NCBI GenBank assembly: GCA_945889005.1
Contig: CAMDBI010000020.1
Location: 1 to 64,000, forward strand
Direction of reading: 5' to 3'
Length of the DNA stretch: 64,000 nucleotides
Source: Bacteroides fragilis
Lineage (GTDB): Bacteria > Bacteroidota > Bacteroidia > Bacteroidales > DTGW01
The notes under the pieces were generated by a model. It was not told where the DNA came from. It saw only the letters and a list, made by a program, of their open reading frames with translations, and searched no databases. The position numbers were made by a program, and so were the translations under genes. Numbering within the stretch: the stretch's first letter is position 1; every line of letters begins with the position of its first letter. This document shows, one piece after another, positions 4,154-62,730 of the stretch.

Positions 4154-7081
4154 ATGAGAATATTACAGATAAAAAACAGGATTAAAGGAACAGTATATTT
4201 TATAGTGCTTCATGCTTTTTTTTTAGTGAATTTAACATCACAAACTATTACAATAAAACCAACGGAAGACTCTTACACAAGAGGAGGGGAATATAAAAAC
4301 ACAAATTATGGCAATGAAACGGAATTAATTGTAAAAAAATCATCAAACGAATCATTTGCCCGTAAATCATTTGTAAAATATGACTTATCAACCATCAATC
4401 TGCAAAATGCCGATTCTATAGTTTTGCAGTTTTATGTTACTGATATAACGGGCAACATGAGCATAGCGTTGTATGAATGCTCCGATAACTGGCAGGAATC
4501 TAACCTTACATGGTCAACAAATCCATTGCCAGGTAAAGAAATTTACATACGCAATCTGGATGCATCACTTATTGGCACGCATTTAACTTTTGATGTAACA
4601 TCTTATATTTTTAGCCGGGCACTTTCCAATGGAATAGTATCATTTATGCTGACCGATCCGGCATTTAATGTTCAGCAGTTAATGCTTAACAGTTCCGAAG
4701 CCATACAAAACACACCCGGATTAGTCATTGATACTTCAGGGGCATCGGCTCCTATAGCCGCTTCAGCATTAAAGGGCGAACCGCTTGATACCGGAAGTAT
4801 TACATTAACCTGGACTGACAATTCTCACAACGAATTGTATTTTTTAATAGAACGAAAAACAACCGAAAGCGATTATGACAGCATAATGGCAATAAATTTT
4901 GATGAAACGGAATATACCGATAAAGGACTTATAAGCGGAATAGAATATACTTACCGGATTAAAGCGGTTGGAACAATTCCAACGGATGTATATTCTGAAA
5001 TAACCACAGTTAAAACTAAAAAAGTGCCAACCGGGTCTCCGGCTATACCTACAAATCTTGTTGCCAAATCAGCTGGAATAAATTTTGTAAACCTTTCGTG
5101 GATCGACAATTCTGATGACGAAGAATATTTTATATTGGAACGCCAAACTAACAATGAATACGTAGTTGTTGATACAGTTGAAGCAAATACCACATGTTAT
5201 TCCGATATTGGTGTTTTTCCATTAACCACCTATACCTACCGGATTTTTGCTTCCAATATTTATTTTGTATCAGGGCCATCCAACGAATTGACCGTATCTA
5301 CAGACTCAACCGGAAAAACCTATTACATAGACCAAATAAATGGTAACGATAGTTTTAGCGGATTATCTACCGACAGCGCCTGGAAGTCGATTGAAAGAGC
5401 AAATGAACAGGTTTTTTCAGCCGGGGATTCTGTTTTGCTGGCACGTGGATCTGTATGGACAGGAATGCTAAGCCCTAAAGGATCGGGACTTATTGGATTT
5501 CCAATTTATTTAGGTACCTATGGTGAAGGAAATCGTCCTTTAATTCATGCCGAAGGTTTAAACCAGGCCGGACTATTACTGCACAATATTGAATTTTGGG
5601 AAGTAAATGGGCTGGAGATTACGAATACAAATGGAACAGATACTGATCAGGGTGCTTTATTTGGTATATATGTGTTGGCAGATGAAGGTGAGGGTATTTA
5701 TGACCATGTTTACATTAACGATTGTTATGTAAGAGAAATAAATGGTCATGTAGAAGGTAAAGAAAGGGGGGGCATTCATGTGCACATCAAAAACCTTAAC
5801 AAATCTATTTTTAACGATTTACGAATTACAAACAACAAGCTGAAAAGAATAGGTGGTGTTGGAATAGGGAACACTTCATCATGTGGAAGTATTGAATTCA
5901 AGACAGATAGTGTGGTTTTGCATAATTTATGGACCAATGTGTATGTTGCCTTCAACCACCTCGACCATACCGGACGTAACAGCATAATTGCAAGGGTTAG
6001 CAAAGATGCTGTTTATGAATACAATATAATGGCATATAGCAGTAGGCACAGCACCGGACATAGCATCTTCTGTTTTAATACTTCGGGCATAAAAATACAA
6101 TATAACGAAGCGTATGGAAATACTGGCGAAGGTGGTATGGACCGCGGAGGTTTTGATGCCGATTATAATTGTGTAAATACGTTTATTCAATACAATTACA
6201 GCCACGACAACCTTTGGTTTTGCGGTATTATGAAAAAGGTTAACCGGAATGTTGTAATACGTTACAATATTAGTCAAAACGACCACGAGGGAATATATTT
6301 TTATGGATTCGACAATGAATCGAAACTTGAAAACATACACATATACAACAATACACATTATGTATCTGCCGGTCATAATGTTCAGGTGTTTCCGGAAAAC
6401 CGGCATCCAAGAAATACTATTTTCGAAAACAACATTTTTTATTTTGAAAAGGCCGGCAGTTGGGGGCCATACCCACAAGGAGAAAATGTGGTTTTTAACA
6501 GAAATCTATACTACAATATTAAGCCTCATCCGGGCGATACAAATGCCATAATCGGTAATCCCGGATTTATTGACCCCGGAAGTGCCGGCAATGGAATCGA
6601 AACGGTTATGGGTTATAAAATTAACGCTTCTTCGCCAGCAATAGATAATGGTAATGTTATTGGCAACAATGGAGGAATTGATTTTTGGGGAGATACCCTT
6701 TACAGGCGAAAACCTGATATTGGTGCGCACGAATTTTTTGAAATTCCCAATACAACATCATCAACAGGAGTTTTTGAACATAAGACACAAACAGATATGC
6801 ACGATTTGTGTATTATTCCAAACCCTATGGTTGATAATGTTACTATTTCATTTAAATTGGAAAAAGAAAAACAGATTTTGATTGAAATATTTAATATTCA
6901 AGGCAGTAAAATAAAAACCTTATTTAATAGCAATCTAAAGGCCGGTAATCAATACATTCATTGGAATGGTAAATGTGATATCGGGCACTCCCTGCCAAAT
7001 GGCTTGTATATATGCAATTTGCGGCTCTTTGGTGAAGTTGGATCAGATGTTTTAACGCGTTCAATCATAATTAACAGGTAA
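4154..7081 (+). CDS. Secreted DNRLRE/CBM-like + fibronectin type III + right-handed beta-helix protein with T9SS tail
   Basis: N-terminal DNRLRE-like region (PTEDSYTRGGEYKNTNYGNETELIVKKSS...SFVKYDLS), two FN3-like repeats (LTWTDNSHNELYFLIERKTTESDYDS / LSWIDNSDDEEYFILERQTNNEYVV), beta-helix with DIGAHEFFE end, C-terminal IIPNPMVDNVTISF. Confidence 0.8.
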   Translation: MRILQIKNRIKGTVYFIVLHAFFLVNLTSQTITIKPTEDSYTRGGEYKNTNYGNETELIVKKSSNESFARKSFVKYDLSTINLQNADSIVLQFYVTDITGNMSIALYECSDNWQESNLTWSTNPLPGKEIYIRNLDASLIGTHLTFDVTSYIFSRALSNGIVSFMLTDPAFNVQQLMLNSSEAIQNTPGLVIDTSGASAPIAASALKGEPLDTGSITLTWTDNSHNELYFLIERKTTESDYDSIMAINFDETEYTDKGLISGIEYTYRIKAVGTIPTDVYSEITTVKTKKVPTGSPAIPTNLVAKSAGINFVNLSWIDNSDDEEYFILERQTNNEYVVVDTVEANTTCYSDIGVFPLTTYTYRIFASNIYFVSGPSNELTVSTDSTGKTYYIDQINGNDSFSGLSTDSAWKSIERANEQVFSAGDSVLLARGSVWTGMLSPKGSGLIGFPIYLGTYGEGNRPLIHAEGLNQAGLLLHNIEFWEVNGLEITNTNGTDTDQGALFGIYVLADEGEGIYDHVYINDCYVREINGHVEGKERGGIHVHIKNLNKSIFNDLRITNNKLKRIGGVGIGNTSSCGSIEFKTDSVVLHNLWTNVYVAFNHLDHTGRNSIIARVSKDAVYEYNIMAYSSRHSTGHSIFCFNTSGIKIQYNEAYGNTGEGGMDRGGFDADYNCVNTFIQYNYSHDNLWFCGIMKKVNRNVVIRYNISQNDHEGIYFYGFDNESKLENIHIYNNTHYVSAGHNVQVFPENRHPRNTIFENNIFYFEKAGSWGPYPQGENVVFNRNLYYNIKPHPGDTNAIIGNPGFIDPGSAGNGIETVMGYKINASSPAIDNGNVIGNNGGIDFWGDTLYRRKPDIGAHEFFEIPNTTSSTGVFEHKTQTDMHDLCIIPNPMVDNVTISFKLEKEKQILIEIFNIQGSKIKTLFNSNLKAGNQYIHWNGKCDIGHSLPNGLYICNLRLFGEVGSDVLTRSIIINR

Positions 7082-7502
7082 TGGTATACTACATCTGGAA
7101 CAATCAGTGCAAAAAAGGCAGTTAATACTTGTAATTATTACAAATAGAAAGACTCTAACTTATTTACAACAATACTCCGTTATAATGTTTTGGTCTAATG
7201 AAGCCGCTTTATAAAAATCTGCAATAATTTGGTTCTGATAATAATTAATATTTCCTTCCTGTTAAATCTGGATTAAATAGCTTTTCATTTCATATTATAA
7301 TCATAGGTTGGCAATGTGTAGTTTTAAGCCCTGTTTGCACTCATGTAACATTATGTTATATAAATACAAATTATGTAACATTAGTAAGCCCATATTGTAA
7401 TAAAAGTACAAATCAGCACAAATATTTAATACTACCTTTCAACAATATTCTTTTATAAGGATATAAAACTAAACAACTAATTATCATTTAAATTCATTAA
7501 TT

Positions 7503-10500
7503 ATGAAAAGAAAAACTCAGCAAAATCCGATTTTGCAATCAATTCGCTTTTTTAGCGTATTGCTATCTTTTTTCCTTCTTGTAGGCTTAGGAAATGTTGT
7601 AAATGCACAAGTTACAGCAATTACTAAAAGCACTACTGATGTATTTAGTACCCAAATAACTTCGGTTACTGTGGGTGGTGTAAATGTCGATTGTGTAAAG
7701 GATGCCGATTGTAAATTACAATTTGCACACTTTATGTACAATTCTTCTACCAGAGTTGTTGTAAAAGCAGCAGCCACTATTACTTCGCACAGTATCCACC
7801 CTGTAGGTCGTGGCATTCAGGGCACAGTATCGGGCAATACATTAACCTTTGACATTGCACCGGTTGCCAACAAAGCTACTTACCTGCTAGTTAAAATTAA
7901 TGGTTACGATCCATTGGTAATTTTAGGTGACAAACCTGAAACCAATGTACCTATTCCTAACGGCAGCAGTATTGTTGATATTACAAAACCTCCATATAGT
8001 GCGGCCAACGATTACAGTCTAAATGTAACAAGTAAAATTCAAAAAGCCATTGATGATATGAGTAGTCGTTCAGGTGGCGGTACGGTATGTTTCCCTAAAG
8101 GTACATACAAGATATTCGAAGAATTGGAAATGAAATCGAATGTTGCCATTTATCTGGCTCCTGGTGCCCATATCGAATCGGACCCAACCAAGACCTACAC
8201 ATCTGGCAATTTTACTTACCCATTAATATGGTTGCGCGGACAGAAAAACGTGAAATTTTATGGTCGTGGTACTTTAAATGCAAAAGGTATGAAGATCATG
8301 GATCCCAAATCGGACTCCGAAAGACGTGGTGTTATTAAAGGCTCGGAAAATTATGCTACACAATCATCAAATGTTGTTATTGATGGTATTGTGCTAAGAG
8401 ATGGCACAACCTGGACCTGCGATATTAAATATGCCGACGGAGTAAATATTTCTAATGTTAAAGTATTAAACCACTGGGATCAAAACTATATATTAAAAAT
8501 TCAAAACGATGGTATAAACCTGTGTTCATCAAAAAATGGTAACGTATGGAATAACTTGGTAATAACAGGTGACGATGCATTTTGCGTAAAAGCCCAGGAC
8601 GAAGTAGACGGAGGCACAAGAAAGTGTTATAATATCCGTAACCACGATAATGTAATATTTAACATGGGTGCTGCTAATAAAATTGGTATGAATGCCAAAG
8701 CCGAAATTTACGATGTAACATTTGACAATAATGAAGTTATTGCCTGTCGCCGTGGTGTTGTTGTTGAATCAAAAATAAGCGGAAATTCTGACGCTAATTA
8801 CCATCCATTACACGACATTACCTTTTCAAATATCCTGATTGAAAATTATCAGGGATATGCAGGCTTTACACAACGTATTTTCGAGTTTTGGGCTTCCAGA
8901 TCTGCTATTAGAAACATTACAGTAACTAATGTTGAGTCACTAAAAGTACCTATAAGTGGTGGCGATGCCTATTGCGATGGTTCAAACAAAATTGATCGAC
9001 TTACATTTAATTGTTTAAAAATTGCCGGAAAAGAAATTACTCAAAGTAATTATGCAGCTAATGGTCTTGATTTTACTCCGTGCGTGAGTAATGTTACTTT
9101 TAATACCGGCTGCATACCTGTTCCTATTCCGGTTACCAGTGTCAATGTTTCTCCAAGTTCCTTAACCTTAAAAGTAGGCCAAACCAGTCAATTAACAGCA
9201 ACTGTTTTACCTACTAATGCTACAAATAAAACAGTAACCTGGACATCGAGCAATACTACTGTAGCAACAGTTAATGCCAGCGGATTAGTAACTGCAATAA
9301 AAGCAGGTTCGGCTACTATCACAGTTAAAACAAATGATGGCGGATTTACAGCTACTTGTGCGGTTACAGTTACTGACGACATTCCTGTTACCGGTGTCGG
9401 TGTTTCTCCAAGTTCTTTATCCTTAAGCAAAGGTGCAACGGGTCAATTAACAGCAAATGTTTTACCTGTCAATGCTACAAATAAAACAGTAACCTGGAAA
9501 TCGAGCAATACCACTGTAGCAACAGTTAATACCAGCGGATTAGTGACTGCAATAAAAGCAGGTTCGGCTACTATCACAGTTACAACAAATGATGGCGGAT
9601 TTACAGCTACTTGTGCGGTTACAGTTACTGACGACATTATTTCTGTTACCGGTGTCGGTGTTTCTCCAAGTTCTTTATCCTTAAGCAAAGATTCAACGGG
9701 TCAATTAACAGCAAATGTTTTACCTGCCAATGCTACAAATAAAACAGTAACCTGGAAATCGAGCAATACCACCGTAGCAACAGTTAATACCAGCGGATTA
9801 GTGACTGCAATAAATGCTGGTTCGGCTACTATCACAGTTACAACAAATGATGGCGGATTTACAGATACTTGTGCGGTTACAGTTACTTCAGATCCAATCT
9901 CAATACTCGATATCGAAGCTGAAAAAGCATCGAGTCAAAGTAAGTTTAGCCCGTTTGTTGTTGTTAATGACCCTTCCGCTTCCGGTGGACAATATATTGT
10001 TAATACAATAAGCACTACTACTATAGATGAAAATAATGGTGGTTTAGCCAACTATTTTTTCATACTAAGTGGAACAGCAACAATCACCTTCAGTGTTAAT
10101 GCTAATTTCCCAGGGGGAAGCGACGACTCGTTCTTTTACAGAATAGACAATGGTCCATGGCAAGTCCAAAACGGACCCACTACTGCTGGTTGGCAAACGA
10201 TTGCAATCACCAGTTTTACAGACCTTTCACCTGCAAACACTCATACACTTACCATTCTACGTCGGGAAGATGGTGCGAAAATAGATAAAATCACTTTAAG
10301 TAATACATCTAATGTAACCATATCTGAACCAAGTGATATTGTGAATGTAACTAGCATCAATTTACCTACAACTACATTAGCTTTAGAAGCTGGCAAAACC
10401 AGTCAGTTAACAGCAAATGTATTACCTACCAATGCCACAGACAAAACAGTAACCTGGTTAACAAATAATAGCGATGTGGCAACAGTTGATGCCAACGGAT

Positions 10501-11636
10501 TAGTAACTGCAATAAGTGTTGGTTCGGCTACTATCACAGTTAAAACAAATGATGGCGAATTTATAGATATTTGTACAGTAACAGTTTCCAAAATTGATGA
10601 CAATTTATATGAAGCCGAACTTGCAGCCTTTACAAATAGTAGTGTGAAAGCAGGTGGTACCGGTCAGTATGTTGACATTGAAGCGGGCGGTAAAATTACC
10701 TGGAACATTAATTCTACAAGCAATACCACATCAAAACTAACATTTAGCATTTCATCGCTTTCGGACAACAGAAGCATGGGCGTATATGTAAATAATGTTA
10801 AAAAAGGTGTAATTTCTACATCACTATCAGCATTTTCCAATAAAACTGTTATTGCAAACCTTAATGCTGGGAGCAATGTAATTGAATTAAGAGATTCTGA
10901 AGGAACGCGTGAGTTAGATGTTGATTATGTAAGTGTTGAAAATATAACAACTACAAAACTTACACTATCGTACAACAATGTAGCCACTAGTGGTTGGGCA
11001 AATCCGGAATATTCGGTAGATGGAGATGATTTAACACCTGCTACAAAATCGGGTAGTACTGCTGCATATATTGAATACAATTTAGGTGGCACATACATGC
11101 TTACATCGGCTCGTATCAATGAAGATAATGTAGGAAACTGGCAATTGGATTCATGGAAATTGCAGTATTACAATGGCTCGACCTGGGTCGATGCATTTGC
11201 TTATACCAATTCAACAACTGCCGGATGGAACGAGGTTGCCATAAATGGTGTAGAAACCGATAAAATAAGGGTATATTTAAAGGAAGACAGCTATATAGAA
11301 GTATTTGAAGTGGAAGTTTATGGCGCAGTTGTAACTTCAAAATCAGCAATGATTGAAACTAAACAACAAAATATTTCGGTTGGCAGTTCAACAAATGTTT
11401 ATCCTAATCCAATTAAAGATGAGCTAAATGTAGTATGCAATGGCAATGAAAATATCATTTCAGTTGCCTTATTCGATGTAACTGGCAAAAAACTGAATGT
11501 CAGCACTAAGAATAGCATTAATGTACAAATGAATACTCTAAATACTTCTGGCATAAGCAGGGGCACATACTTTTTGCAAGTAGTAACCCAATGTGAAGGA
11601 ACAGAAAAATCTCAGGTATTTAAAGTAATCAAGTAA
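7503..11636 (+). CDS. Secreted GH28/pectate-lyase-like beta-helix protein with several Big_2 domains, discoidin-like region and T9SS tail
   Basis: GGGTVCFPKGTYKIFEELEMKSNVAIYLAPGAHIES beta-helix entry; tandem Big_2 repeats (9132-9890) plus one more near 10350-10590; C-terminal VYPNPIKDELNV...FKVIK. Confidence 0.85.
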   Translation: MKRKTQQNPILQSIRFFSVLLSFFLLVGLGNVVNAQVTAITKSTTDVFSTQITSVTVGGVNVDCVKDADCKLQFAHFMYNSSTRVVVKAAATITSHSIHPVGRGIQGTVSGNTLTFDIAPVANKATYLLVKINGYDPLVILGDKPETNVPIPNGSSIVDITKPPYSAANDYSLNVTSKIQKAIDDMSSRSGGGTVCFPKGTYKIFEELEMKSNVAIYLAPGAHIESDPTKTYTSGNFTYPLIWLRGQKNVKFYGRGTLNAKGMKIMDPKSDSERRGVIKGSENYATQSSNVVIDGIVLRDGTTWTCDIKYADGVNISNVKVLNHWDQNYILKIQNDGINLCSSKNGNVWNNLVITGDDAFCVKAQDEVDGGTRKCYNIRNHDNVIFNMGAANKIGMNAKAEIYDVTFDNNEVIACRRGVVVESKISGNSDANYHPLHDITFSNILIENYQGYAGFTQRIFEFWASRSAIRNITVTNVESLKVPISGGDAYCDGSNKIDRLTFNCLKIAGKEITQSNYAANGLDFTPCVSNVTFNTGCIPVPIPVTSVNVSPSSLTLKVGQTSQLTATVLPTNATNKTVTWTSSNTTVATVNASGLVTAIKAGSATITVKTNDGGFTATCAVTVTDDIPVTGVGVSPSSLSLSKGATGQLTANVLPVNATNKTVTWKSSNTTVATVNTSGLVTAIKAGSATITVTTNDGGFTATCAVTVTDDIISVTGVGVSPSSLSLSKDSTGQLTANVLPANATNKTVTWKSSNTTVATVNTSGLVTAINAGSATITVTTNDGGFTDTCAVTVTSDPISILDIEAEKASSQSKFSPFVVVNDPSASGGQYIVNTISTTTIDENNGGLANYFFILSGTATITFSVNANFPGGSDDSFFYRIDNGPWQVQNGPTTAGWQTIAITSFTDLSPANTHTLTILRREDGAKIDKITLSNTSNVTISEPSDIVNVTSINLPTTTLALEAGKTSQLTANVLPTNATDKTVTWLTNNSDVATVDANGLVTAISVGSATITVKTNDGEFIDICTVTVSKIDDNLYEAELAAFTNSSVKAGGTGQYVDIEAGGKITWNINSTSNTTSKLTFSISSLSDNRSMGVYVNNVKKGVISTSLSAFSNKTVIANLNAGSNVIELRDSEGTRELDVDYVSVENITTTKLTLSYNNVATSGWANPEYSVDGDDLTPATKSGSTAAYIEYNLGGTYMLTSARINEDNVGNWQLDSWKLQYYNGSTWVDAFAYTNSTTAGWNEVAINGVETDKIRVYLKEDSYIEVFEVEVYGAVVTSKSAMIETKQQNISVGSSTNVYPNPIKDELNVVCNGNENIISVALFDVTGKKLNVSTKNSINVQMNTLNTSGISRGTYFLQVVTQCEGTEKSQVFKVIK
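9132..9890 (+). repeat. Three tandem Big_2-domain-encoding repeats, about 255-258 bp each
   Basis: GTTACC(A/G)GTGTC..GTTTCTCCAAGTTC units start at 9132, 9387 and 9645, with nearly identical sequence between units 2 and 3. Confidence 0.9.
9901..11321 (+). repeat. About 1.42-kb direct repeat, copy 2 (pairs with 2240-3660)
   Basis: Same sequence as 2240-3660 with scattered substitutions; offset 7661 at both ends. Confidence 0.9.
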
Positions 11637-11651
11637 TAAAATTTTGAAATA

Positions 11652-11794
11652 GAAACTGTGTAAAAAAGTCAGCTACTGAGACTGTTTGAGCGAAAAGTGA
11701 CAATTCACTAATTTACAGCGATAGATTATAAACTATCGTTCATAATACAAATTCAGCTCAGCTTCTCAACCTTTCTGACTATTTACACAGTTTC
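11652..11794. mobile_element. MITE-like 143-bp element with terminal inverted repeats
   Basis: Left end GAAACTGTGTAAAAAAGTCAG; right end CTGACTATTTACACAGTTTC (reverse complement GAAACTGTGTAAATAGTCAG); no ORF inside; no clear target-site duplication. Confidence 0.6.
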
Positions 11795-11900
11795 TTTTCA
11801 ATTAACTACTAATTTTTTTTGAAAAGTATTGAACCAAACCAACTATTTATAAATGGTTTTTAAAATAATAATAAATTGGTTGTATAAAAATTTACAAGTT

Positions 11901-12902
11901 ATGAAATGCAGAATGATTAAGTACTTTGTTGTGGCATTTATTTTTATTTCGATCTCTTGCAATTATGAGAAGAAAGTAAAAATAGCCTTTTTGTTGCCCC
12001 ATATGAAAATTGAAAGGTACGTAAAAGAGAAGGAATTTTTCGGGAAACGCATTCAGGAACTTGGGGGAGAGTATTATTTTGCAAATGCAGAGTACGATCA
12101 GGGTCTACAATTGAAACAAGCAAAAGAGTTTATTGAAAATGGAGTTACGGTTATTGTTATTAGCCCTGTAAATTCGATGCTTGCAGGCGAAATTTTACGT
12201 TTAGGTCATAATAACAATGTTACTATAATATCATACGACAGAATGATACTAAATGCAGATGTTGACTATTGTATTACATTCAGGTATCAAAAGGTGGGCG
12301 AGGATATGGTTAAATACTGCACCCAAATAAAACCCCAAGGAAAATATGTAGTACTTGGTGGCGATAAGAGCGATTTTAACGCAATGCAAATAAACATAGG
12401 TCAGCAAAGAATATTAGAACCCTTAGTAAAAAATGGCTCTATTAAAATTTTGTATAACTCGTTTATTGAAGAATGGAATTCTGAAAATGCATACGATTCT
12501 ATGGAAAGTATTCTTAGGCTGAGTAACGAACATCCTGAAGTTGTTATTTCTTCTGGCGAAAAGCTTACTGTTGGAGTTACAAAAGCACTAGGAGAGTATA
12601 ATTTGTTGGGGAAAACCCTTGTAACCGGTATGGATCCCGATAAAGAATCGTGTAAACGGATGCAAACAGGGGCACAAACCATTTCTATTTTAAAACCTAT
12701 AAAAAAACTAGCAGTAAGTGCTGCTGATTTTGCTTTTTCATGTGCCACTCAAAAGAATATGCCCGAAATTACAGAAACTCTTAATAATGGTAAGTTTGAT
12801 ATCCCTACAATTTTTCTTGACCCAATAATAACCGATAAGAACAATGTTAAATCTGCACTGATTAACGAGGGAATTTATTCCGAGGCGGACTTTACAAACT
12901 AA
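11901..12902 (+). CDS. Periplasmic sugar-binding lipoprotein, XylF/RbsB type
   Basis: Track ORF begins at 11853, but ATG at 11901 (MKCRMIKYFVVAFIFISISC) gives a proper lipobox; KVKIAFLLPHMKIERYVKEKEFFGKRIQELGGEYYFANAEYDQGLQLKQAKEFIENGVTVIVISPVNS is type-1 periplasmic binding protein-like. Confidence 0.8.
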   Translation: MKCRMIKYFVVAFIFISISCNYEKKVKIAFLLPHMKIERYVKEKEFFGKRIQELGGEYYFANAEYDQGLQLKQAKEFIENGVTVIVISPVNSMLAGEILRLGHNNNVTIISYDRMILNADVDYCITFRYQKVGEDMVKYCTQIKPQGKYVVLGGDKSDFNAMQINIGQQRILEPLVKNGSIKILYNSFIEEWNSENAYDSMESILRLSNEHPEVVISSGEKLTVGVTKALGEYNLLGKTLVTGMDPDKESCKRMQTGAQTISILKPIKKLAVSAADFAFSCATQKNMPEITETLNNGKFDIPTIFLDPIITDKNNVKSALINEGIYSEADFTN

Positions 12903-12972
12903 TTTCATTAAATGCCAAAGTTGTTCGGCAAAACGTAAAAAGCAATTTATAAATTAAAATATAACAAATTTT

Positions 12973-13398
12973 ATGAAAACACCTTCTTCAGAATGTTTGT
13001 ATTGTCAGAATAATGAAAAACTACAACAATTAATGATTAAAATATGCGATTTAGAAGTGTCGCAACTCTTTTTATTCAAAGAGCAAACGCATCCGGGGCG
13101 TTGCAATGTAGTTTACAATAATCATTCTGTTGATTTTCATGAACTAAGCGACGAACAGCGAAATGCATTTATGCGTGATGTTGCAGTTGTGGGCAAAGCT
13201 ATTCAGGATGCTTTTAACCCTGACAAAATTAACTATGGTGCTTATGCCGATACTATTTCTCATTTACATTTTCATGTGGTACCGAAATACAAAGATGGAT
13301 ACGGGTTTGGAGGTGTTTTTGAGATGAATCCACAAAAAGTAACCTTATCCGATGCTGAATACGAAGATATAATTAAAAAGATAAAAGATAAATTATAA
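12973..13398 (+). CDS. HIT family protein (histidine triad hydrolase)
   Basis: HIT motif SHLHFHVVPKYKDG. Confidence 0.9.
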   Translation: MKTPSSECLYCQNNEKLQQLMIKICDLEVSQLFLFKEQTHPGRCNVVYNNHSVDFHELSDEQRNAFMRDVAVVGKAIQDAFNPDKINYGAYADTISHLHFHVVPKYKDGYGFGGVFEMNPQKVTLSDAEYEDIIKKIKDKL

Positions 13399-13462
13399 AG
13401 AAAAATATTTAAAAGTGGAAAAACCATAGAATGAATATTATACAAAAATCCACTTTGACAAT

Positions 13463-16400
13463 TCAGCTTAAGTATTGTTTCATTAATACCAATAATGATT
13501 CTCGATTGATTGGTTTACAAATATAATTTACACATCCCGCTTCAATTGATTTATTGTGATCGGCACTTGCAGCGTTTGCAGTTTGTGCAATAATTTTTAT
13601 GTTTGGATTTATTTTCAAAATTAACTTTGCAGCCTCATATCCTGTAATATCGGGCAAGCAAATATCCATTAGTATAACATCTATTTTTTGCTGCTCAACT
13701 ATTTTAATTGCCGACAATCCATTTGTAACAGTAATAATGTTATGTGCCACATTTTTAAGGATTTCTTTTAAATATTGAGCATTATAAAAATCGTCTTCAA
13801 CAATAAGAATTGTATTATTTGAAGAATATTCTTGTATTGGCCCAATGGTTTGCAGATTATTTGATATTGTATCGACACTCAAATAGTTAATTGAAAAATA
13901 AAAGGTAGTACCCTTGTTACATTCCGAATCTAACCAAATGTTGCCACCCAAAAGCCTTACTAATTCTTTAACAATTGACAAACCCAAACCTGTACCCCCC
14001 AAATTTTGATTGGTTGGGTGTGCAATTTTACTAAACCGATCGAAAATATACTCGAATTTATCTGCAGGAATGCCAATACCTGTATCGCGAACCAGAAATA
14101 GAAGTTTTCCGTTTTCATATTTACATTCACATATAACCGACCCGTTTTCTGTAAATTTAATTGCATTACTAACAAGGTTAATTATTATTTGTTTTAATTT
14201 GAGTTTATCGGTTTGAGCAGTTAAAATTGAATCATTTGGCAAAATTTGAAACAACACATTGATATGCTGTTTATTAAGTCGCACTTTATATCCATCAAAA
14301 AACTGGTTCAATTCAATAAACAGTTCATTTATATTGCACGGTTCAATATTTAATGTGTTATGTACCGAATCAATAATAGAAATATCGAGTATATCGTTTA
14401 TTATATCGAGCAAATCATTGGAACGCTTATCAATGATTTTTGAAAAATCTTCAAGTGTTTTCTTATTATCGAAATTTTCTGGCAATAAACTTGAAAAACC
14501 CACGATGGCATTCAAAGGCGTGCGTATCTCGTGACTAATATTCTGAATAAATGAAGTTTTTAAGTGGTCCGATTCTTCTGCCTTTTCTTTTGCCAGTTTT
14601 AATTCGTTTGTTCTCTCTTCGACAAGTTCTTCGAGGTTATTCCGATGTGTCTGAAGCTCGGTATTTTGCCTAACTATTAGATCGTTTTGCTTGGCATTTT
14701 CTTCGTTCTGAGCAGTAATCTCTTCATTTTGTGCCGAAATTTCCTGATAACTCTCTTCAAGAAGATTGGTTCGTTCTTTTACAAGTTTTTCAAGATCATT
14801 ACGTTGCTTTGTTAGTATTTTTAAACGCACTTTATAAATTGCCCATACTAAACCCAAAATAAAAAGAAAGAGTGTTGCTTTAAAAAACCATGTTTTTATG
14901 AATGGGGGGTGAACAATAATGGTTAATTTTCGTGTTTCGTCAAGCCAATTTCCTTGAATATCTGACGATTGCACCATAAAAATATATTTTCCGCCTTCCA
15001 GTCCTGTGAATGTTGCTTTTCTATCATCGCCAGCTACTATCCAGTCTGAACTGAAATTTTCTAGTTTGTAGCGGTATTTAATTATGTTTTCCATTAGAAT
15101 ATTTGGAACTGCAAAACCAATTGAAAACATTTTGTTTTTTTCGTTAACATGAATGGTACTCACGGAATTAATATGTTTTAATATTCCATTCTCGAGTATA
15201 AGGGAGTCTTTGTTAAATATTTGAAATGAGGTAAACCTTATTTTTGGATTGTGCCAAATATCCTCAACACTGTCCGGATGAAAACGGTGGAATCCGCTAT
15301 TTCCGCCAAAATATATGTACCCGTTTTGGTCGTACAAAGAAGATGTTATATTTGGAGCATTATTATACATTAAAGGCATTGGTTGCCAAAGCTCAATACT
15401 TTTTTGTATATGGTTTAATTTGCATATTCCGCCTAAAGTACTCAGCCAAATTCGGTTTTTATTATCAATTACAATGTCCTGAACAAAGTTAAATTTGTTT
15501 CCTGCATTCGAATAATATACAGTAATTTCGAAAGTTCTAATATTTAGCATATTAACTCCGTTTTCTGTTCCAATCCATAAATTACCATTCGAATCGGAAA
15601 CCACAGATTTTAAACTGTTATTGCTTAATGCCGGTGTTGTTGAAGTATTAATAATTGCTAACGAATCTGTTTGTTTGAAATACATGTGTAAACCGGCATT
15701 TTTTGTAGCAAAACAAATAACCCCATTTACTTCTGTAATGTCATATACTTTGTAGTCGTTGAGTTTAAATAATTCTTTTTTGATTTCTGTTAATTCAAAA
15801 AAACTATCCGAAATTAAATCAAGCTTTTGTATGCCACTCTCCAGAAAGCTTATCCACAGCATACTATCGGCCGATCTGTGAAAAGCCCATGCTTTGTTAG
15901 ATCCCGGACAATTAGAACAATTTGGTGTGTTTCTATAATTCTTTGCTTGTTGGGTTATGGTGTTATAAATGGTAAATCCCTCTTGAAAAGAAGAAATATA
16001 CAAATTGTTAAAATTGTCTGCATAAACAGCAGAAATAAAATCGCCATTAATAGCATAGCTTTTTTGAGGATAATAAAACCTTTTTATTTCTTTTGTTTTA
16101 GAGTTAAAGGTATTTAGCCCGTTTCCCTGGGAAGCTAACCAAATTGTACCATCGGTTGTCGTAGCTATATCTGCCACGTTTATGTTTCTAATTCCGGATT
16201 TTCTGACTGAAGTTTCATAAAAATATTCCAGCCGGTTAATAGCCTTACTGTATATATCAATACCTGCATCAAAAGTACCTACAAATAGATTGCCTTCTTT
16301 ATCGGTGTGCAGCTTATAAATTCCATCGCTAGACAGTGCGTTTTTATCGAACTGATTTGCTTTGAGGAAATGAATATTTCCGGTATTATCCATAATATTT

Positions 16401-17293
16401 ACACCGCCATTGTTAGTAGCAATCCATAGTTGTTTATCATAAACAATTATATCGTGTACTGCATTGTATGCTATTTTCACTTTACTACTTGTAGAATAGT
16501 GGACAAACTCTTTATTTATGAGGCTGTATGACCATAATCCCTTTGTTTCGCTGCCAATCCACAATTTTTCTTCAGTTGATTGATAACCCAAGTGCTTTAA
16601 ATCAAGAAAAAAATTTTCGGATGCTATGCTTTCTAATTCAGGAATGGGAATTCTTTCAATAGTTGCAGATTGCAGATTAAATTTATCGATGTAACATGAG
16701 GCCGTAGCCAGCCAAATACTACCTTTAGCATATATCAATGAACGAATACAATTACTGGATATAGTATTGGAGTCGTTTTCAGAATGAAAAAAATAATTAA
16801 AATCATTTGAATCGGGCAGATATTGTATAAAACCACTATTTTCGGTGGCAAAATACAATATATTATCTACTTCTAATATATCAAAAACAGTTGAAAAACT
16901 CAATTCGCTATTTTTGCAATCAGCGGATATATCTATTTTTTTAAATCCATCAATCTCGGGTATATAAACGCATACCCCGCCTCCGGATGTGCCAATCCAT
17001 ATTTGCCCCCTGCTGTCTTCAAATATTTTAAGTATTTGGTTTGAAGTAATAGAACTTGTTATATCGGGGTTGTGCAAGTATGTTTTTGTATTGTAGCCAT
17101 TGTACACATTTATACCGGCATTGGTAGCTATCCATAACAATCCGTTAGAGTCGCGGTAAATATCAAAAATCCAATTGCTTGAAAGACCATCTTTTGTGCT
17201 AAGGTTAACAAAGTTGCAATTTGCAGCTTTTGCTTTGCAGGTAAATGCAATGAGTAGAATTGATGTTATAATTAATTTATACATTATGTTCAA
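13463..17293 (-). CDS. Hybrid two-component sensor: two-component-regulator propeller, Y_Y_Y domain, HisKA, HATPase, terminal REC domain
   Basis: Repeated propeller motifs (DSNGLLWIATNAGINVYN, DSRGQIWIGTSGGGVCVY), SFIQNISHEIRTPLNAIVGFSS H-box, GTGLGLSIVKELVRLLGG G-box, REC ILIVEDDFYN...VILMDICLPDITG...CKPI; protein ends at the REC domain. Confidence 0.95.
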   Translation of the reverse strand: MNIMYKLIITSILLIAFTCKAKAANCNFVNLSTKDGLSSNWIFDIYRDSNGLLWIATNAGINVYNGYNTKTYLHNPDITSSITSNQILKIFEDSRGQIWIGTSGGGVCVYIPEIDGFKKIDISADCKNSELSFSTVFDILEVDNILYFATENSGFIQYLPDSNDFNYFFHSENDSNTISSNCIRSLIYAKGSIWLATASCYIDKFNLQSATIERIPIPELESIASENFFLDLKHLGYQSTEEKLWIGSETKGLWSYSLINKEFVHYSTSSKVKIAYNAVHDIIVYDKQLWIATNNGGVNIMDNTGNIHFLKANQFDKNALSSDGIYKLHTDKEGNLFVGTFDAGIDIYSKAINRLEYFYETSVRKSGIRNINVADIATTTDGTIWLASQGNGLNTFNSKTKEIKRFYYPQKSYAINGDFISAVYADNFNNLYISSFQEGFTIYNTITQQAKNYRNTPNCSNCPGSNKAWAFHRSADSMLWISFLESGIQKLDLISDSFFELTEIKKELFKLNDYKVYDITEVNGVICFATKNAGLHMYFKQTDSLAIINTSTTPALSNNSLKSVVSDSNGNLWIGTENGVNMLNIRTFEITVYYSNAGNKFNFVQDIVIDNKNRIWLSTLGGICKLNHIQKSIELWQPMPLMYNNAPNITSSLYDQNGYIYFGGNSGFHRFHPDSVEDIWHNPKIRFTSFQIFNKDSLILENGILKHINSVSTIHVNEKNKMFSIGFAVPNILMENIIKYRYKLENFSSDWIVAGDDRKATFTGLEGGKYIFMVQSSDIQGNWLDETRKLTIIVHPPFIKTWFFKATLFLFILGLVWAIYKVRLKILTKQRNDLEKLVKERTNLLEESYQEISAQNEEITAQNEENAKQNDLIVRQNTELQTHRNNLEELVEERTNELKLAKEKAEESDHLKTSFIQNISHEIRTPLNAIVGFSSLLPENFDNKKTLEDFSKIIDKRSNDLLDIINDILDISIIDSVHNTLNIEPCNINELFIELNQFFDGYKVRLNKQHINVLFQILPNDSILTAQTDKLKLKQIIINLVSNAIKFTENGSVICECKYENGKLLFLVRDTGIGIPADKFEYIFDRFSKIAHPTNQNLGGTGLGLSIVKELVRLLGGNIWLDSECNKGTTFYFSINYLSVDTISNNLQTIGPIQEYSSNNTILIVEDDFYNAQYLKEILKNVAHNIITVTNGLSAIKIVEQQKIDVILMDICLPDITGYEAAKLILKINPNIKIIAQTANAASADHNKSIEAGCVNYICKPINRESLLVLMKQYLS

Positions 17294-17716
17294 TAATTAA
17301 AATGTAAGAAATTACGAACAATATTATATTCTTCAAGCTTCAATAGGTATAAATTATTTTTTTGTAGCATTCATGTTTATGCTGCACAATTACAAATTTA
17401 AAGCAATAATCAGAAATCTGCAATTTGATCATTTTCAATATGTCTACCTATATTTCAAGAAGTTAATGCAACACACTCGAAAAAGATACCTATTGGTATT
17501 ATAAATTTAAGTTTATCTTAGGACTTCTGGTAATATTTTGCTTGAAATTTTTTGAAATTAAAGTATAGTCTGAGCAAGCAATAATAAGAATTAAACTATC
17601 TCTGGTATCGATATAATTCGACGCATTATTTAATTAATTAATTACCGATCAATAGTAACACAACAGCAGTAAATAGTTTTTTCATTTGTTAAATTTTAAG
17701 TGTTTTAATATAAAAA

Positions 17717-50515: not shown

Positions 50516-51316
50516 ATGAAAAGTCTCGCAATAATCACATTCATACTCATTATAGGAATAGTTTCATTTCTTATTTTCAAATGGTACAGAGCCAACGAGA
50601 TAATCTATAATTATAACCCAGCCAAACATAGATCTGAAAATTTTTCGAACACTCTACCGTATCGCTATTTTATTCCCGCTATTGAATCCAATAAAAAATA
50701 CCCTTTAATGGTTTATTTACATTCAGCATCGGGGCGAGGAACCAATAATCGAAAACAATTAGAACAAGCGGCAATATTTTATAGCTCTATACCCTTTCAG
50801 AAACAATTGCCTATGTTTGTTTTAGCACCACAATGCCCTACCGGAACCCAATGGCTCAATACCAAGTTTCCAAACCTTCCGTATGTACTTTACAATCAGG
50901 ATGCAATTCCGGAAAGCCCGATAATGAAACAAACAATGACACTCATAAAGGAATTTATAAAACAACACCCAATAGATACAAGTCGAATTTACATTTCGGG
51001 ATTTAGCATGGGTTCTTCGGGTTCGTGGGATATCATCACCCGATACCCGGGCACTTTCGCGGCTGCAATACTTATTTCGGGCACAAAAGACACAAGCAAA
51101 ACCTCACTAGCCAGCAATACTTCATTTTGGCTATTTCATGGGTCGAACGACAAGATTTGCTCCCCTATGACTACCCAATCGGCCGCTAAGGCTCTTATTG
51201 AAATAGGAGCTGATTGCAAAATTAATCTTTACGAAGCTGGCCACAATTGTGTAAAAGAAACACTACAAGAGCCAGAACTTATCAGCTGGCTTATGTCAAA
51301 AAGTTTAAAACATTAA
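50516..51316 (+). CDS. Alpha/beta hydrolase (PHB-depolymerase/esterase-like)
   Basis: YLHSASGRGTNNRKQLEQA; GFSMGSSGSWDIITRYPGTFAAAILISG nucleophile elbow; DKICSP...GHNC. Confidence 0.85.
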   Translation: MKSLAIITFILIIGIVSFLIFKWYRANEIIYNYNPAKHRSENFSNTLPYRYFIPAIESNKKYPLMVYLHSASGRGTNNRKQLEQAAIFYSSIPFQKQLPMFVLAPQCPTGTQWLNTKFPNLPYVLYNQDAIPESPIMKQTMTLIKEFIKQHPIDTSRIYISGFSMGSSGSWDIITRYPGTFAAAILISGTKDTSKTSLASNTSFWLFHGSNDKICSPMTTQSAAKALIEIGADCKINLYEAGHNCVKETLQEPELISWLMSKSLKH

Positions 51317-51339: not shown

Positions 51340-52203
51340 TTAGCCTTTAACAGCTTCAACAAAAATCATAATTTTTTGAAAATAATTGTCGAAGTAATTG
51401 AGATTTCGCATTGGTGGAGCAAAGCTTTGCCCTGGGCACGATTGCATAACATTGTTAAAGCCTGTTTCGCCAAGTTTACGTTGATATTTTTCAAAATTCC
51501 ACCAATTCCGGTGGCTTCTTCTATTCTTTAGGTGGTACTCAGGGTCACAAAGTGCCGTAATTTTATCCATTGCCTTATCAAATGGGTATTCTTTTAACAA
51601 TTGTGCTAACTCCTCGTCCGATACAAATCTACTACCTTCTCTGGCATTATGTTTTGCTACACTACCAGCAAAGTGATCGATATACAATTGTGCAATGGAA
51701 GCATTAGCAAGGCTTACATGGTCTTTTCGAAAATAATAGAAATGATAATCGTTGTGAAGAAATGCTCGGTAGTATAAATCTGAGTTTGGCGAAATAAACC
51801 TTACAATACCCCCGGGTTTTAAAATTCGATATATTTCGCGAAAAAGATTTTCACATGCCTCATCTGTAATATGTTCGACTGTAAGTTTTGAGTAAACCAA
51901 CTCGGCAGAATTACTCTCTATGGGTAATTTTTCGAGCCGGGCAGCGTCAAAAGCTATATCTTTAGAGGAATCGTAATTTCGGTCTTTTTTATTCCATGGT
52001 CTATTTACATCGGCTGTTGTCCAATATGGATGGTTAAATTTTCCACCGAACTCGAAATGCCCCCCTGCACATATATTATAAAACCTTCGATTTGCAATAC
52101 TATCTTGCGGGTACAGTTCATTATATATTTCAAAATCATTTAAACCTTTCTTGAAATTTATCTCGATTCCTACTTTGTCCAAAAGCGTTTTAATCATTCT
52201 CAT
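51340..52203 (-). CDS. Class I SAM-dependent methyltransferase
   Basis: FDAARLEKLPIESNSAELVYSKLTVEHITDEACENLFREIYRILKPGGIVRFISPN. Confidence 0.85.
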   Translation of the reverse strand: MRMIKTLLDKVGIEINFKKGLNDFEIYNELYPQDSIANRRFYNICAGGHFEFGGKFNHPYWTTADVNRPWNKKDRNYDSSKDIAFDAARLEKLPIESNSAELVYSKLTVEHITDEACENLFREIYRILKPGGIVRFISPNSDLYYRAFLHNDYHFYYFRKDHVSLANASIAQLYIDHFAGSVAKHNAREGSRFVSDEELAQLLKEYPFDKAMDKITALCDPEYHLKNRRSHRNWWNFEKYQRKLGETGFNNVMQSCPGQSFAPPMRNLNYFDNYFQKIMIFVEAVKG

Positions 52204-59373: not shown

Positions 59374-60411
59374 CTACGAAGGCTTCAACATTGAATCGTC
59401 TATTTTAAGCTCAGCCATTGCATATTTTATTTGATCGATGGGCTGATCGAACAATTTTGCCAAGGCTTCTTCCCTATCGAGCAAATTTTTTCGTATGAGG
59501 TGACTCAACTCCAACTCGTAAGGACTGTACCCATACCTTTTAATATGCACATAATTGTTGAATGAATTGATTCGGCAATTGGTAGAGCAACCATCGACAT
59601 CGGCAGGTTTTACCCAACCCAATGGGAGAATTTGTTGAACAATTTCATTTTCTGTAATATCTTCCATGCACAGAAGGTTGATATTGTGAGGATAATGTTC
59701 TGTATTACGAATCAAATCGTCCGATATCTCGAGATACTTGCTTACATCGTTGCCCAATTCCGATTTCAACTTATCTAAAACCGGCTTGCGACTTTCCTTA
59801 AAAAACTCGTAATTGTTTTGGTAATAAATTGTGTTTGAAGGAATTTGCCCCAAGGTAAAACCAGCGAGAATAAACGGGATTTTTTTCTCAAGTGCAATTT
59901 TGAGCGAAACTATATTAACTATCGATATACAAGAATTGCAATTGGCCGAAATTCGGGTAAGAGACTTGGGATTGTATATATTTTCGAGAGAACTGAACCT
60001 ATACAAACCTTTCATAAACTTGTAAGAAGGCTTAAATGTATAATGGTCGATTCCGAGAGCTTTAACAACTTTGTCGATATTAGTAAAAGCAACTGGCGAT
60101 ATAAAACCATTGTCGAGGGTAAAAGATAGTATTTTGAGGCCATACTTTTCGACAGCCAGTTTCAGAGTATAGGTACTATCTTTTCCGCCACTGTAACACA
60201 CTATGGCATCGTATTCCGACAATCCACGTTTTTGTTCAAAAAGCTTGACAACTTCTTTGGTGGCTTGGTCTATGTTATCTTTTTCGGTGGTATGTAGCAA
60301 TTCGTTGTTACAAAAATTGCAAACACCATGCTCGTCGAATTTGATGCGCGGGAAATTTACAGACAATATACATTTTGTGCACCTTTGCACTTTCAACTGT
60401 TCCATTTTTTT
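59374..60411 (-). CDS. PP-loop ATPase, N-acetyl sugar amidotransferase/WbpG-like (AANH superfamily)
   Basis: QRCTKCILSVNFPRIKFDEHGVCNFC zinc-finger-like N-terminus, VCYSGGKDSTYTLKLA PP-loop, C-terminal DVDGCSTNC; likely start MEQLKVQ at about 60405 within the track ORF 59374-60444. Confidence 0.85.
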   Translation of the reverse strand, partial: KKMEQLKVQRCTKCILSVNFPRIKFDEHGVCNFCNNELLHTTEKDNIDQATKEVVKLFEQKRGLSEYDAIVCYSGGKDSTYTLKLAVEKYGLKILSFTLDNGFISPVAFTNIDKVVKALGIDHYTFKPSYKFMKGLYRFSSLENIYNPKSLTRISANCNSCISIVNIVSLKIALEKKIPFILAGFTLGQIPSNTIYYQNNYEFFKESRKPVLDKLKSELGNDVSKYLEISDDLIRNTEHYPHNINLLCMEDITENEIVQQILPLGWVKPADVDGCSTNCRINSFNNYVHIKRYGYSPYELELSHLIRKNLLDREEALAKLFDQPIDQIKYAMAELKIDDSMLKPS

Positions 60412-60477
60412 AAATTTAAATTTTAAAAACTGTATTCGATACAACTCCCTTTGTAAAAATTGAAGTATTGACCAAAT

Positions 60478-60744
60478 CTATTCGAATTTCATTTTGTGAA
60501 TAAAGTCGACCAATTTTAGCACCGAACCAAAATTGGCACGGTTCATTTGCTCATTCTCAACTGTAAAACTGTATGTTTTCTGAATATATGAAGCAATTTC
60601 GATAAGGCCCATGGAGTCGATAATGCCGGTATCGACCAAACTTTTGTCGATTTCAATATCCTCAACATCGACAAAAAACTGGCGGCACAGAAATTCGAGC
60701 AAATCTTTTTGAATTTGTTCTTTTGTAATTACAGGGTTTTCCAT
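60478..60744 (-). CDS. Free-standing acyl/peptidyl carrier protein
   Basis: 88 aa; LVDTGIIDSMGLIEIASYIQKTYSF contains the DSM phosphopantetheine attachment site. Confidence 0.88.
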   Translation of the reverse strand: MENPVITKEQIQKDLLEFLCRQFFVDVEDIEIDKSLVDTGIIDSMGLIEIASYIQKTYSFTVENEQMNRANFGSVLKLVDFIHKMKFE

Positions 60745-60753
60745 ATTTTTTTA

Positions 60754-62730
60754 TTATTTATAATCATCGATAAAATTTGTAAGTTTATTTTCGGGCAAAG
60801 TTAGTTTTTTGGGATTCTTTGCCCAGTAATTGGCTATTTGAGTTGAAAGCAGAAAAGTAACAATCATATTGTCGCGATAGCCAATATTATCGGGAATTCC
60901 GCTGCTAAATTTGGCAAGAAAACGTTCGACCCATTTGGGGTTGAATATTTGATAACTTTTAATAAGATCTTCGCTTAAAAAATACCCGGCACGCTCGGTG
61001 AGTTTTCCATTTCTGATAAACGATCGCAAATCGGGCGACATATAGGGGCGTTTTGGACGGTTAATAATCTCTGAAGGAATATCGTTTTCAAAACCCTTCT
61101 TGAGCATATATTTCTGATCGAAGCCATTAAGCTTGTAGTTTTCTTTCATAAAAAAAAGCATATCGATAACCCTATAATCGAGAAAAGGGTATCGACCTTC
61201 AACGCCATGAGCTAGCGACATACGGTCTCCCTGCGACGACAACAGGTAACCGGCAAGCAGTGTGCGCATTTCTACATACTGGCTTTTTTGAAGAATTGAC
61301 CAACTGTTATAATCGGCTGGTACTTGCTTACGAAATTCAGACAAGAAGTTTTCTTTATTGTAATTGACACCATGCGATTTCTCAAAATAGTTTTGAAGAA
61401 TCATGTTGTTGTGAACACGAATATTTGCCGATGCCAGCTCGTTGTTTACTTCGCCCAAAAAACCTTCGTAGAACATACGCATCATACCGTACTGTTTGTC
61501 GTCGGAGTAATGATTGAGGTGTGGATATAGTTTCTTGATAAGAAGCGGACGGATTTGAGAATCGGGAAACTTGCTCCAGAATTCGAGCAATTTTACCTCT
61601 TTAAACGAATCGTAACCCCAAAGGACTTCATCTGCGCCTTCTCCAGTGAGAACTACTTTTATGCCTTCTTCCCTAACCTTTTTTGATAAATGATAGAGGG
61701 GAGTTGGTGCAGTACGAAACACAGGGCGTTCGGTATGGTATATAACATCTGCAAAAGCCTCGTCGACATTGTCGTAAGTAATATTTACAGCATGGTGTTC
61801 GGTGTTTATGCGATCGACCATAAGTTTTTGGTAATACGATTCGTCGTATTCTTTATCTTCAAATGTAACCGAGAAAGTTTTATAGACATTCGAAGTGTGT
61901 TTCGATATCAGAGAAAGAATAACTGAGCTGTCGATTCCTCCGCTCAAATATGCCCCAACAGGCACATCACTCCTGAGGCGCAAACGAACAGCATCGTTGA
62001 GCAAATCTTTAAAAGCAAGTTCAGCTTCGGCATACGAGCTGTATTTGTATTGATGGGCTTGTCCGAATTCGTAATATCGACCTGTACGGGCTATTGTACC
62101 TTCGCTAAATACAGCATAAGTACCACCCGGCAATGAGCGTATGCCGTTGTAAACAGTTTTGTCGCCGGTAGTGTTCCAAAGCAAGCCATGTTCAAAAAGG
62201 TTAGTTACGTGAAAAGATCTTTGATAACCGGGTATTTGGTCAAAAGCTTTCATTTCGGAACTAAAAAAGTACTGACCATCGTGCTGCATATAATACAATG
62301 GCCTTACCCCGTATCGATCGCGTACAACCAACAGTTCTTTGGTGCGTTTGTTCCAAATAAGAACAGCAAATTGCCCATTGAATTTCGAAAAACAATCGAC
62401 CCCGTATTCGATATATGCTTTAAGCAACACCTCCGTATCGCTGGTAGTTTCAAACTTTACGCCACGAGCTCCAAGTTCTTCTTTAAGCTCAATATAGTTA
62501 AATATTTCGCCATTATACACAATTACATATTCTCCACTGGTCATAGGCTGACTACCTCCCGCCAAATCAACAATCGACAAACGCGTTTGTCCCAAAACAA
62601 CTTCGGGCGATAAAAAACAACCCCAACCATCGGGACCACGATGCTGGAGAGTCGACACCATTTGCCTAATCAGCTGTTTTCTAGCATCTTTACTCCCTTT
62701 ATCCCCATAAAATCCAACTATTCCGCACAT
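60754..62730 (-). CDS. asnB: Glutamine-hydrolysing asparagine synthase (AsnB family)
   Basis: MCGIVGFYGD N-terminal Cys nucleophile; RHRGPDGWG-type motif; GAYLSGGIDSSVILSL synthetase PP-loop; VLTGEGADEVLWGYDSFKE. Confidence 0.93.
   Translation of the reverse strand: MCGIVGFYGDKGSKDARKQLIRQMVSTLQHRGPDGWGCFLSPEVVLGQTRLSIVDLAGGSQPMTSGEYVIVYNGEIFNYIELKEELGARGVKFETTSDTEVLLKAYIEYGVDCFSKFNGQFAVLIWNKRTKELLVVRDRYGVRPLYYMQHDGQYFFSSEMKAFDQIPGYQRSFHVTNLFEHGLLWNTTGDKTVYNGIRSLPGGTYAVFSEGTIARTGRYYEFGQAHQYKYSSYAEAELAFKDLLNDAVRLRLRSDVPVGAYLSGGIDSSVILSLISKHTSNVYKTFSVTFEDKEYDESYYQKLMVDRINTEHHAVNITYDNVDEAFADVIYHTERPVFRTAPTPLYHLSKKVREEGIKVVLTGEGADEVLWGYDSFKEVKLLEFWSKFPDSQIRPLLIKKLYPHLNHYSDDKQYGMMRMFYEGFLGEVNNELASANIRVHNNMILQNYFEKSHGVNYNKENFLSEFRKQVPADYNSWSILQKSQYVEMRTLLAGYLLSSQGDRMSLAHGVEGRYPFLDYRVIDMLFFMKENYKLNGFDQKYMLKKGFENDIPSEIINRPKRPYMSPDLRSFIRNGKLTERAGYFLSEDLIKSYQIFNPKWVERFLAKFSSGIPDNIGYRDNMIVTFLLSTQIANYWAKNPKKLTLPENKLTNFIDDYK

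Follow-up and report, generated by a model that had tools for sequence, protein, structure and literature searches.

Genes at the locus

The stretch of DNA analysed, referred to as the window, comprises 64,000 nt (positions 1-64,000 of contig CAMDBI010000020.1, assembly GCA_945889005.1). Genes for an AsnB-type amide synthetase, a free carrier protein (ACP) and a PP-loop protein lie next to each other near its end (Table 1). The first-pass annotation had described two PP-loop ATPases, with the motif SGGIDSS in AsnB and SGGKDS in the other protein, on either side of a standalone carrier protein and between two NRPS genes. Both motifs read as described, and all of these genes were found in place.

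Table 1. Features of the window and interrupted adenylation (A) domains of related loci (positions within each locus)
Feature	Position	Strand	Code, basis or relatives
asnB, class II glutamine amidotransferase/amide synthetase, 658 aa	60754-62730	-	Pfam, NCBIfam, residues
Free acyl/peptidyl carrier protein, 88 aa	60478-60744	-	Pfam PP-binding 2.2e-7; Ser in GIIDSMGLIE
CtaC-like PP-loop (AANH) protein	59374-60444	-	Motifs, relatives, fold
NRPS A-T, 614 aa	62752 to contig 64596	-	A code DVWHFSLVDK (Ser)
NRPS C-A-T, 1072 aa	56057-59275	-	A code DILQLGMVWK (presumably Gly-like)
PKS KS-AT-ACP-TE, 1262 aa	52243-56031	-	
SAM methyltransferase	51340-52203	-	Relatives adjoin module in L003, L004
Alpha/beta hydrolase	50516-51316	+	Relatives adjoin module in L002, L005/L097, L122
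Sfp-type phosphopantetheinyl transferase, 225 aa	41739-42416	-	Assigned by eye; blastp relative beside module in L002, another in L094
L077 (Bacteroidota) interrupted A domain	8521-12540		DLTKIGEVGK
L011 (Roseovarius plasmid) interrupted A domain	9370-17463		DLTKVGEVGK
L121 (Pseudomonadota) interrupted A domain	6568-10800		DLSKIGEVGK
L130 (Pseudomonadota) interrupted A domain	4746-7727		DLTKIGEVGK

AsnB matched the Pfam models Asn_synthase (E 9e-83) and GATase_7 (E 5e-43) and scored 466.5 bits against TIGR01536, above the cut-off of 267.1. The score against TIGR03108 (XrtA/PEP-CTERM amidotransferase) was 381.7 bits, below the cut-off of 816.9. As judged from conservation across 17 sequences, the protein is intact with respect to the Cys2 nucleophile, the glutaminase residues, SGGIDSS, GEGADE and the K449-equivalent lysine. 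The PP-loop protein gave no match in the Pfam search. Its gene probably starts with the ATG at 60405, resulting in a protein of 343 aa, as the 13 extra residues given by the listed TTG start have no counterpart in the relatives. An N-terminal CxxC...CxxC region is followed by SGGKDS (residues 72-77), C156xxC159 and STNC277.

The surrounding genes form an NRPS-PKS hybrid cluster, with C, A, T, KS, AT and TE domains in adjacent genes on the same strand; the A-T gene extends 596 bases beyond the end of the window. The A-domain codes were read by alignment, and the code of the C-A-T protein was taken as Gly-like. Positions 330/331 of the A-T code were corrected by eye, giving a code that is assigned to Ser (PMC3795760). 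HisH/HisF-like partners had not been visible at the first inspection, and none were recognised among the genes from 50.5 kb to the contig end at 74.1 kb, which were assessed partly by eye. A phage origin was rejected, as the phage comparison gave no match.

Cysteine signature and fold of the PP-loop protein

Two lineages of relatives, I and II, are described below; in both of them, as well as in the fused forms, the cysteines C156, C159 and C277 (the last within STNCxxN) were invariant. The classical WbuX clade (12 rows) was without equivalents of these residues, and all three were also absent from the controls L124, L125 and L127, which are WbuX proteins annotated beside HisH and HisF. A similar cysteine trio occurred in some other WbuX-like groups of unassigned function. 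In the tree, lineages I and II were grouped together (96/94), apart from classical WbuX.

CtaC carries the residues D77/S78 and C154/C157/C284, requires a [4Fe-4S] cluster and is active only on PCP-bound substrate (PMC6772006). The PP-loop protein of the window has D76/S77 and C156/C159/C277, at nearly the same positions; this kinship was judged from the published residue positions. When profiles were aligned with E. coli TtcA (93.5% probability), C156 and C159 fell on TtcA C122 and C125, while the third cysteine was unaligned. A structure was predicted from 8 sequences only (pLDDT 72, pTM 0.76), and a search with the predicted fold returned 8wex first (TM 0.66), then [4Fe-4S] LarE, NcsA, TtuA and the 6-thioguanine enzyme YcfA. 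The latter four had low TM-scores and serve as supporting evidence only.

The designation WbpG-like in the first-pass annotation thus holds at the level of the fold, with 8wex as the best match, but not at the level of the family: the score against the WbuX model TIGR03573 was 145 bits, under the cut-off of 203.2. Membership in WbpG/WbuX was rejected on this score, the lack of recognised HisH/HisF genes between 50.5 kb and the contig end, and the different cysteine pattern. A WbpG-like amidination, in which the PP-loop protein would activate an amide and ammonia from the AsnB glutaminase would attack it to give an amidine, nevertheless has some points in its favour, since the best fold match is an N-acetyl sugar amidotransferase, the WbuX model does respond and an ammonia-generating protein adjoins. 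We regard it as rather improbable. Apart from the low WbuX score, HisH/HisF-linked enzymes do not have the three extra cysteines, AsnB retains a complete synthetase site of its own, and the NadE-like partners that occur in lineage II (322-366 aa) are covered over their full length by ammonia-dependent NAD synthase models, so that a glutaminase domain would not fit.

Conservation of the three-gene order

The order asnB-ACP-PP-loop was kept in all nine loci of lineage I (the window, L002-L008 and L117) at 50-77% identity. These loci span three phyla: Bacteroidota (window, L002, L003, L004, L008, L117), Pseudomonadota (L005, L007) and Desulfobacterota (L006). A scan of species genomes yielded seven relatives, and the family search added G1375; L005 and L007 are closely related, and G1295, which is the genome of L004, was not counted separately. 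Scores at the level of lineage I were rare: a single genome reached them in each of three samples, which comprised 197 genomes of the order, 396 of the phylum and 399 of Pseudomonadota; Actinomycetota and Bacillota were sampled through plasmids only.

The free ACP gene was located directly upstream of the PP-loop gene in 9/9 loci, and in L006 and L007 the two reading frames share four bases. In the complete loci a condensation domain or a C-A-T module comes next, with one acyltransferase between in L005/L122. In L008 and L117 the triplet is directly followed by a C domain alone, without a C-A-T module. The lineage I genomes contain about 2-5 asnB-type genes each, and together with the conserved order this argues that the adjacency is not due to chance. 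The source genome of the window also has further asnB-type genes; the copy in the triplet is not its sole asparagine synthase. The triplet is a genuine tailoring unit, and the earlier proposal of a tailoring submodule is supported by the order conserved in the nine loci that the search of other genomes brought together.

The first-pass annotation had named co-occurrence with surface-sugar genes only, and never with NRPS genes, as evidence against such a unit. The triplet was found in the company of NRPS genes. Many of the copies are at the same time situated in loci that look like exopolysaccharide loci (L003-L008 and L117; gene names by eye). Some lineage II copies are located near exosortase-like genes, likewise by eye except for the annotated records L010 and L011. 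These surroundings would be accounted for by a polysaccharide-modification set that lies beside NRPS genes by coincidence, with no joint function. This explanation is hardly credible, given the free ACP adjoining in all lineage I loci, the condensation domain that follows in the complete ones and the fusion of the PP-loop domain into NRPS proteins.

Upstream of the triplet in L006 (3950-7699) one protein has condensation and carrier domains, and the part between them looks by eye FkbH-like (glyceryl loading). In L008 (2312-11017), as in the corresponding part of L117/L118, the triplet is accompanied by a ligase, two small ACPs and KASIII-like and FemAB-like genes (by eye).

Lineage II and other relatives

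A full-length PP-loop sister was present at 190-330 bits in about 20 of 247 genomes of Desulfobacterota. The PP-loop genes of lineage II are neighboured by an A-type ligase of about 500-535 aa and often by an ACP gene, mostly without C domains. These ligases are similar to acyl-CoA ligases and to TIGR03098, a model associated with exosortases, but score below the cut-off of the latter. An amide-forming partner was AsnB in 8 of the 15 loci and a NadE-like protein in 3; the NadE-like proteins match ammonia-dependent NAD synthase models end to end (PRK00876, above cut-off). In the remaining 4 loci the fetched region contained no AsnB and no NadE. The generalisation that lineage II always has AsnB was therefore rejected, and the four loci were counted against the thioamide reading proposed below.

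PP-loop enzymes are chemically diverse, and in lineage I loci no A domain is evidently reserved for the free ACP. Another chemistry might accordingly be considered, such as a QueC-like ATP-driven dehydration to a nitrile or the loading of an acid onto the ACP. We give this little credence, because the TtcA-type cysteine triad would not be needed for it and the ligase of lineage II could already load the ACP.

Streptomyces L012 has a fusion of the PP-loop domain with a condensation domain; asnB and an NRPS gene adjoin. L016 (1501-3945) encodes a NifS-type cysteine desulfurase, a TusA-like protein and a PP-loop relative (157 bits) in one run, possibly a dedicated sulfur relay. L092 (6454-16615) encodes LarE, MnmA and a PP-loop protein of the same kind, as well as a protein of 1881 aa with formyltransferase, A, carrier and nitroreductase domains. 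A radical SAM/B12 protein directly precedes the PP-loop relative in L091 (7634-10321), which comes from the same Desulfosudis genome as L006. In L009 (8497-12126) a large protein with near-identical tandem repeats (FTLGATASSGL...) is encoded beside the cluster at the contig end.

Interrupted A domains

In L077, L011, L121 and L130 the PP-loop domain interrupts an A domain at a site flanked by motifs A8 and A9. All four interrupted A domains have a complete A core with an Asn-like code (Table 1), which we take to be of the asparagine type; as they form one related group, they count as one piece of evidence and not as four. AsnB was absent from the fetched surroundings of three of these loci, L130 being on a short contig and outside the comparison. 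An acyl-CoA dehydrogenase-like gene was seen near the interrupted A domains of L077, L011 and L121.

Free-standing PP-loop genes usually have an amide synthetase gene adjoining. Considered together with the Asn codes of the fused forms, this makes a primary carboxamide the simplest common substrate. Alternatively, the PP-loop protein might act on the growing Ser-Gly chain and thioamidate a backbone (secondary) amide there, AsnB having a separate role such as the supply of an amide building block or of a terminal amide. CtaC acts in this way on backbone amides on a PCP (PMC6772006), and most loci of lineage I contain NRPS modules. However, L008 and L117 have a C domain alone downstream of the triplet, lineage II dispenses largely with C domains yet keeps the A-type protein, the ACP, the PP-loop protein and often an amide synthetase, and this reading does not explain why the interrupted A domains have an Asn code. 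The backbone target is for these reasons considered unlikely.

Proposed function of the triplet

Our preferred reading, held with slightly less than even confidence, is that the triplet is an on-carrier amide-to-thioamide unit, in which AsnB makes a primary amide that the PP-loop enzyme converts to a thioamide. AsnB would transfer ammonia from glutamine to the free carboxylate of an ACP-bound acyl unit (e.g. malonyl-ACP), giving a primary carboxamide; the AsnB-like OxyD is held to do likewise for malonamate. The PP-loop protein would adenylate the carboxamide oxygen with ATP, and sulfur from a [4Fe-4S] cluster, with C156, C159 and C277 as its ligands, would replace the oxygen, so that the carrier would then bear a primary thioamide. 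From there the following condensation domain would hand the thioamide unit on, here into the Ser/Gly/malonate assembly line. In L008 and L117/L118 the lone condensation domain after the triplet may transfer the unit to polysaccharide. The analysis shows the gene content, order and conservation, the intact catalytic residues, the cysteine signature and the fold relatives; a carrier-bound substrate, sulfur as the nucleophile and a primary rather than a backbone amide as the target are inferred.

The amide-to-thioamide reading is suggested by the amide-forming partner (AsnB in 9/9 loci of lineage I and 8/15 of lineage II, NadE-like in 3 more), by the order conserved across three phyla, by the insertion of the PP-loop domain into Asn-code A domains and by the further asnB-type genes of the genome. 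The cysteine triad, the controls, the TtcA alignment, the folds and the neighbours in L016 and L092 together favour sulfur over nitrogen chemistry. The first-pass annotation had offered either amidation by ammonia from AsnB or an AANH-type sulfur transfer on a carrier-bound intermediate. The second option is favoured by the CtaC/TtcA-type cysteines, which the HisH/HisF-linked WbpG proteins lack, and instead of being alternatives the two steps probably occur in succession, amidation first and thiolation second. A gene for sulfur mobilisation was looked for in the cluster of the window and none was seen, which was counted against the thioamide reading; the closthioamide cta cluster is likewise without one (PMC6772006). 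Also counted against it were the unaligned third cysteine in the TtcA comparison, the use of published positions for the kinship with CtaC and the relatedness of the four interrupted A domains.

With distinctly more reserve, a portable primary-thioamide module can be envisaged, consisting of AsnB or a NadE-like protein, the ACP and the PP-loop protein, that would serve in NRPS-PKS lines and in exopolysaccharide loci; inside Asn A domains the PP-loop domain would have become a tailoring domain of a new type that produces thio-asparagine residues. Thioamides are rare in nonribosomal peptides. Closthioamide was called the only bacterial thioamide-containing nonribosomal peptide identified by 2019 (PMC6772006). 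If the proposal is true, a fixed pair of amide synthetase and thioamide synthetase on a carrier would open a way to primary thioamides that can be tested, and would offer a handle for genome mining. The A-domain insertion ties the PP-loop enzyme to asparagine and makes the question of the substrate directly testable, and the exopolysaccharide loci raise the possibility of surface polymers bearing thioamides.

In the literature searched, which consisted of main texts mostly from outside the subscription journals, no account was found of the coupling to an amide synthetase, the interrupted-A form or the link to exopolysaccharides. Nothing relevant was found there on WbpG with NRPS, N-acetyl sugar amidotransferase with AsnB and ACP, PP-loop proteins with adenylation domains, exosortase with AsnB and ACP, or primary-thioamide NRPS clusters.

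Comparison with known systems

The WbpG/WbuX proteins (TIGR03573, 8wex) have the closest fold and share the N-terminal four-Cys region. They differ in that the window protein falls below their family cut-off, no HisH/HisF were seen and the HisH/HisF-linked members are without the three extra cysteines. The tRNA thiolases TtcA, TtuA and NcsA likewise combine a CxxC and a third cysteine with a PP-loop, although in the comparison with E. coli TtcA the CxxC alone aligned, and are neighbours in fold; their substrate is tRNA, no carrier protein is involved, and TtcA lacks the N-terminal double CxxC. The exopolysaccharide amidotransferase (TIGR03108) and acyl-CoA ligase (TIGR03098) of the XrtA/PEP-CTERM systems have relatives in AsnB and in the acyl ligase of lineage II, which lie in similar-looking loci but score well below the curated cut-offs; those models include no PP-loop partner. 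L077, L011, L121 and L130 resemble the interrupted adenylation domains (PMC8150014) in carrying a tailoring domain between A8 and A9. The part of that source consulted names E, F, KR, methyltransferase and oxidase domains as insertions, in contrast to the PP-loop ATPase found here.

A close parallel is CtaC, the AANH-type thioamide synthetase of the antibiotic closthioamide with a [4Fe-4S] cluster, of which many homologs beside NRPS genes, mostly in anaerobes, were reported in 2019 (PMC6772006). Common to both are the PP-loop D/S and three cysteines at near-identical positions, a carrier protein encoded in the cluster and an NRP-type context. CtaC acts on backbone beta-alanyl amides and its described pathway has no AsnB, whereas the triplet has AsnB as a fixed partner, a canonical NRPS-PKS line and relatives with A-domain insertions. 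The description that suits the triplet best is that of a CtaC-type variant coupled to an amide synthetase.
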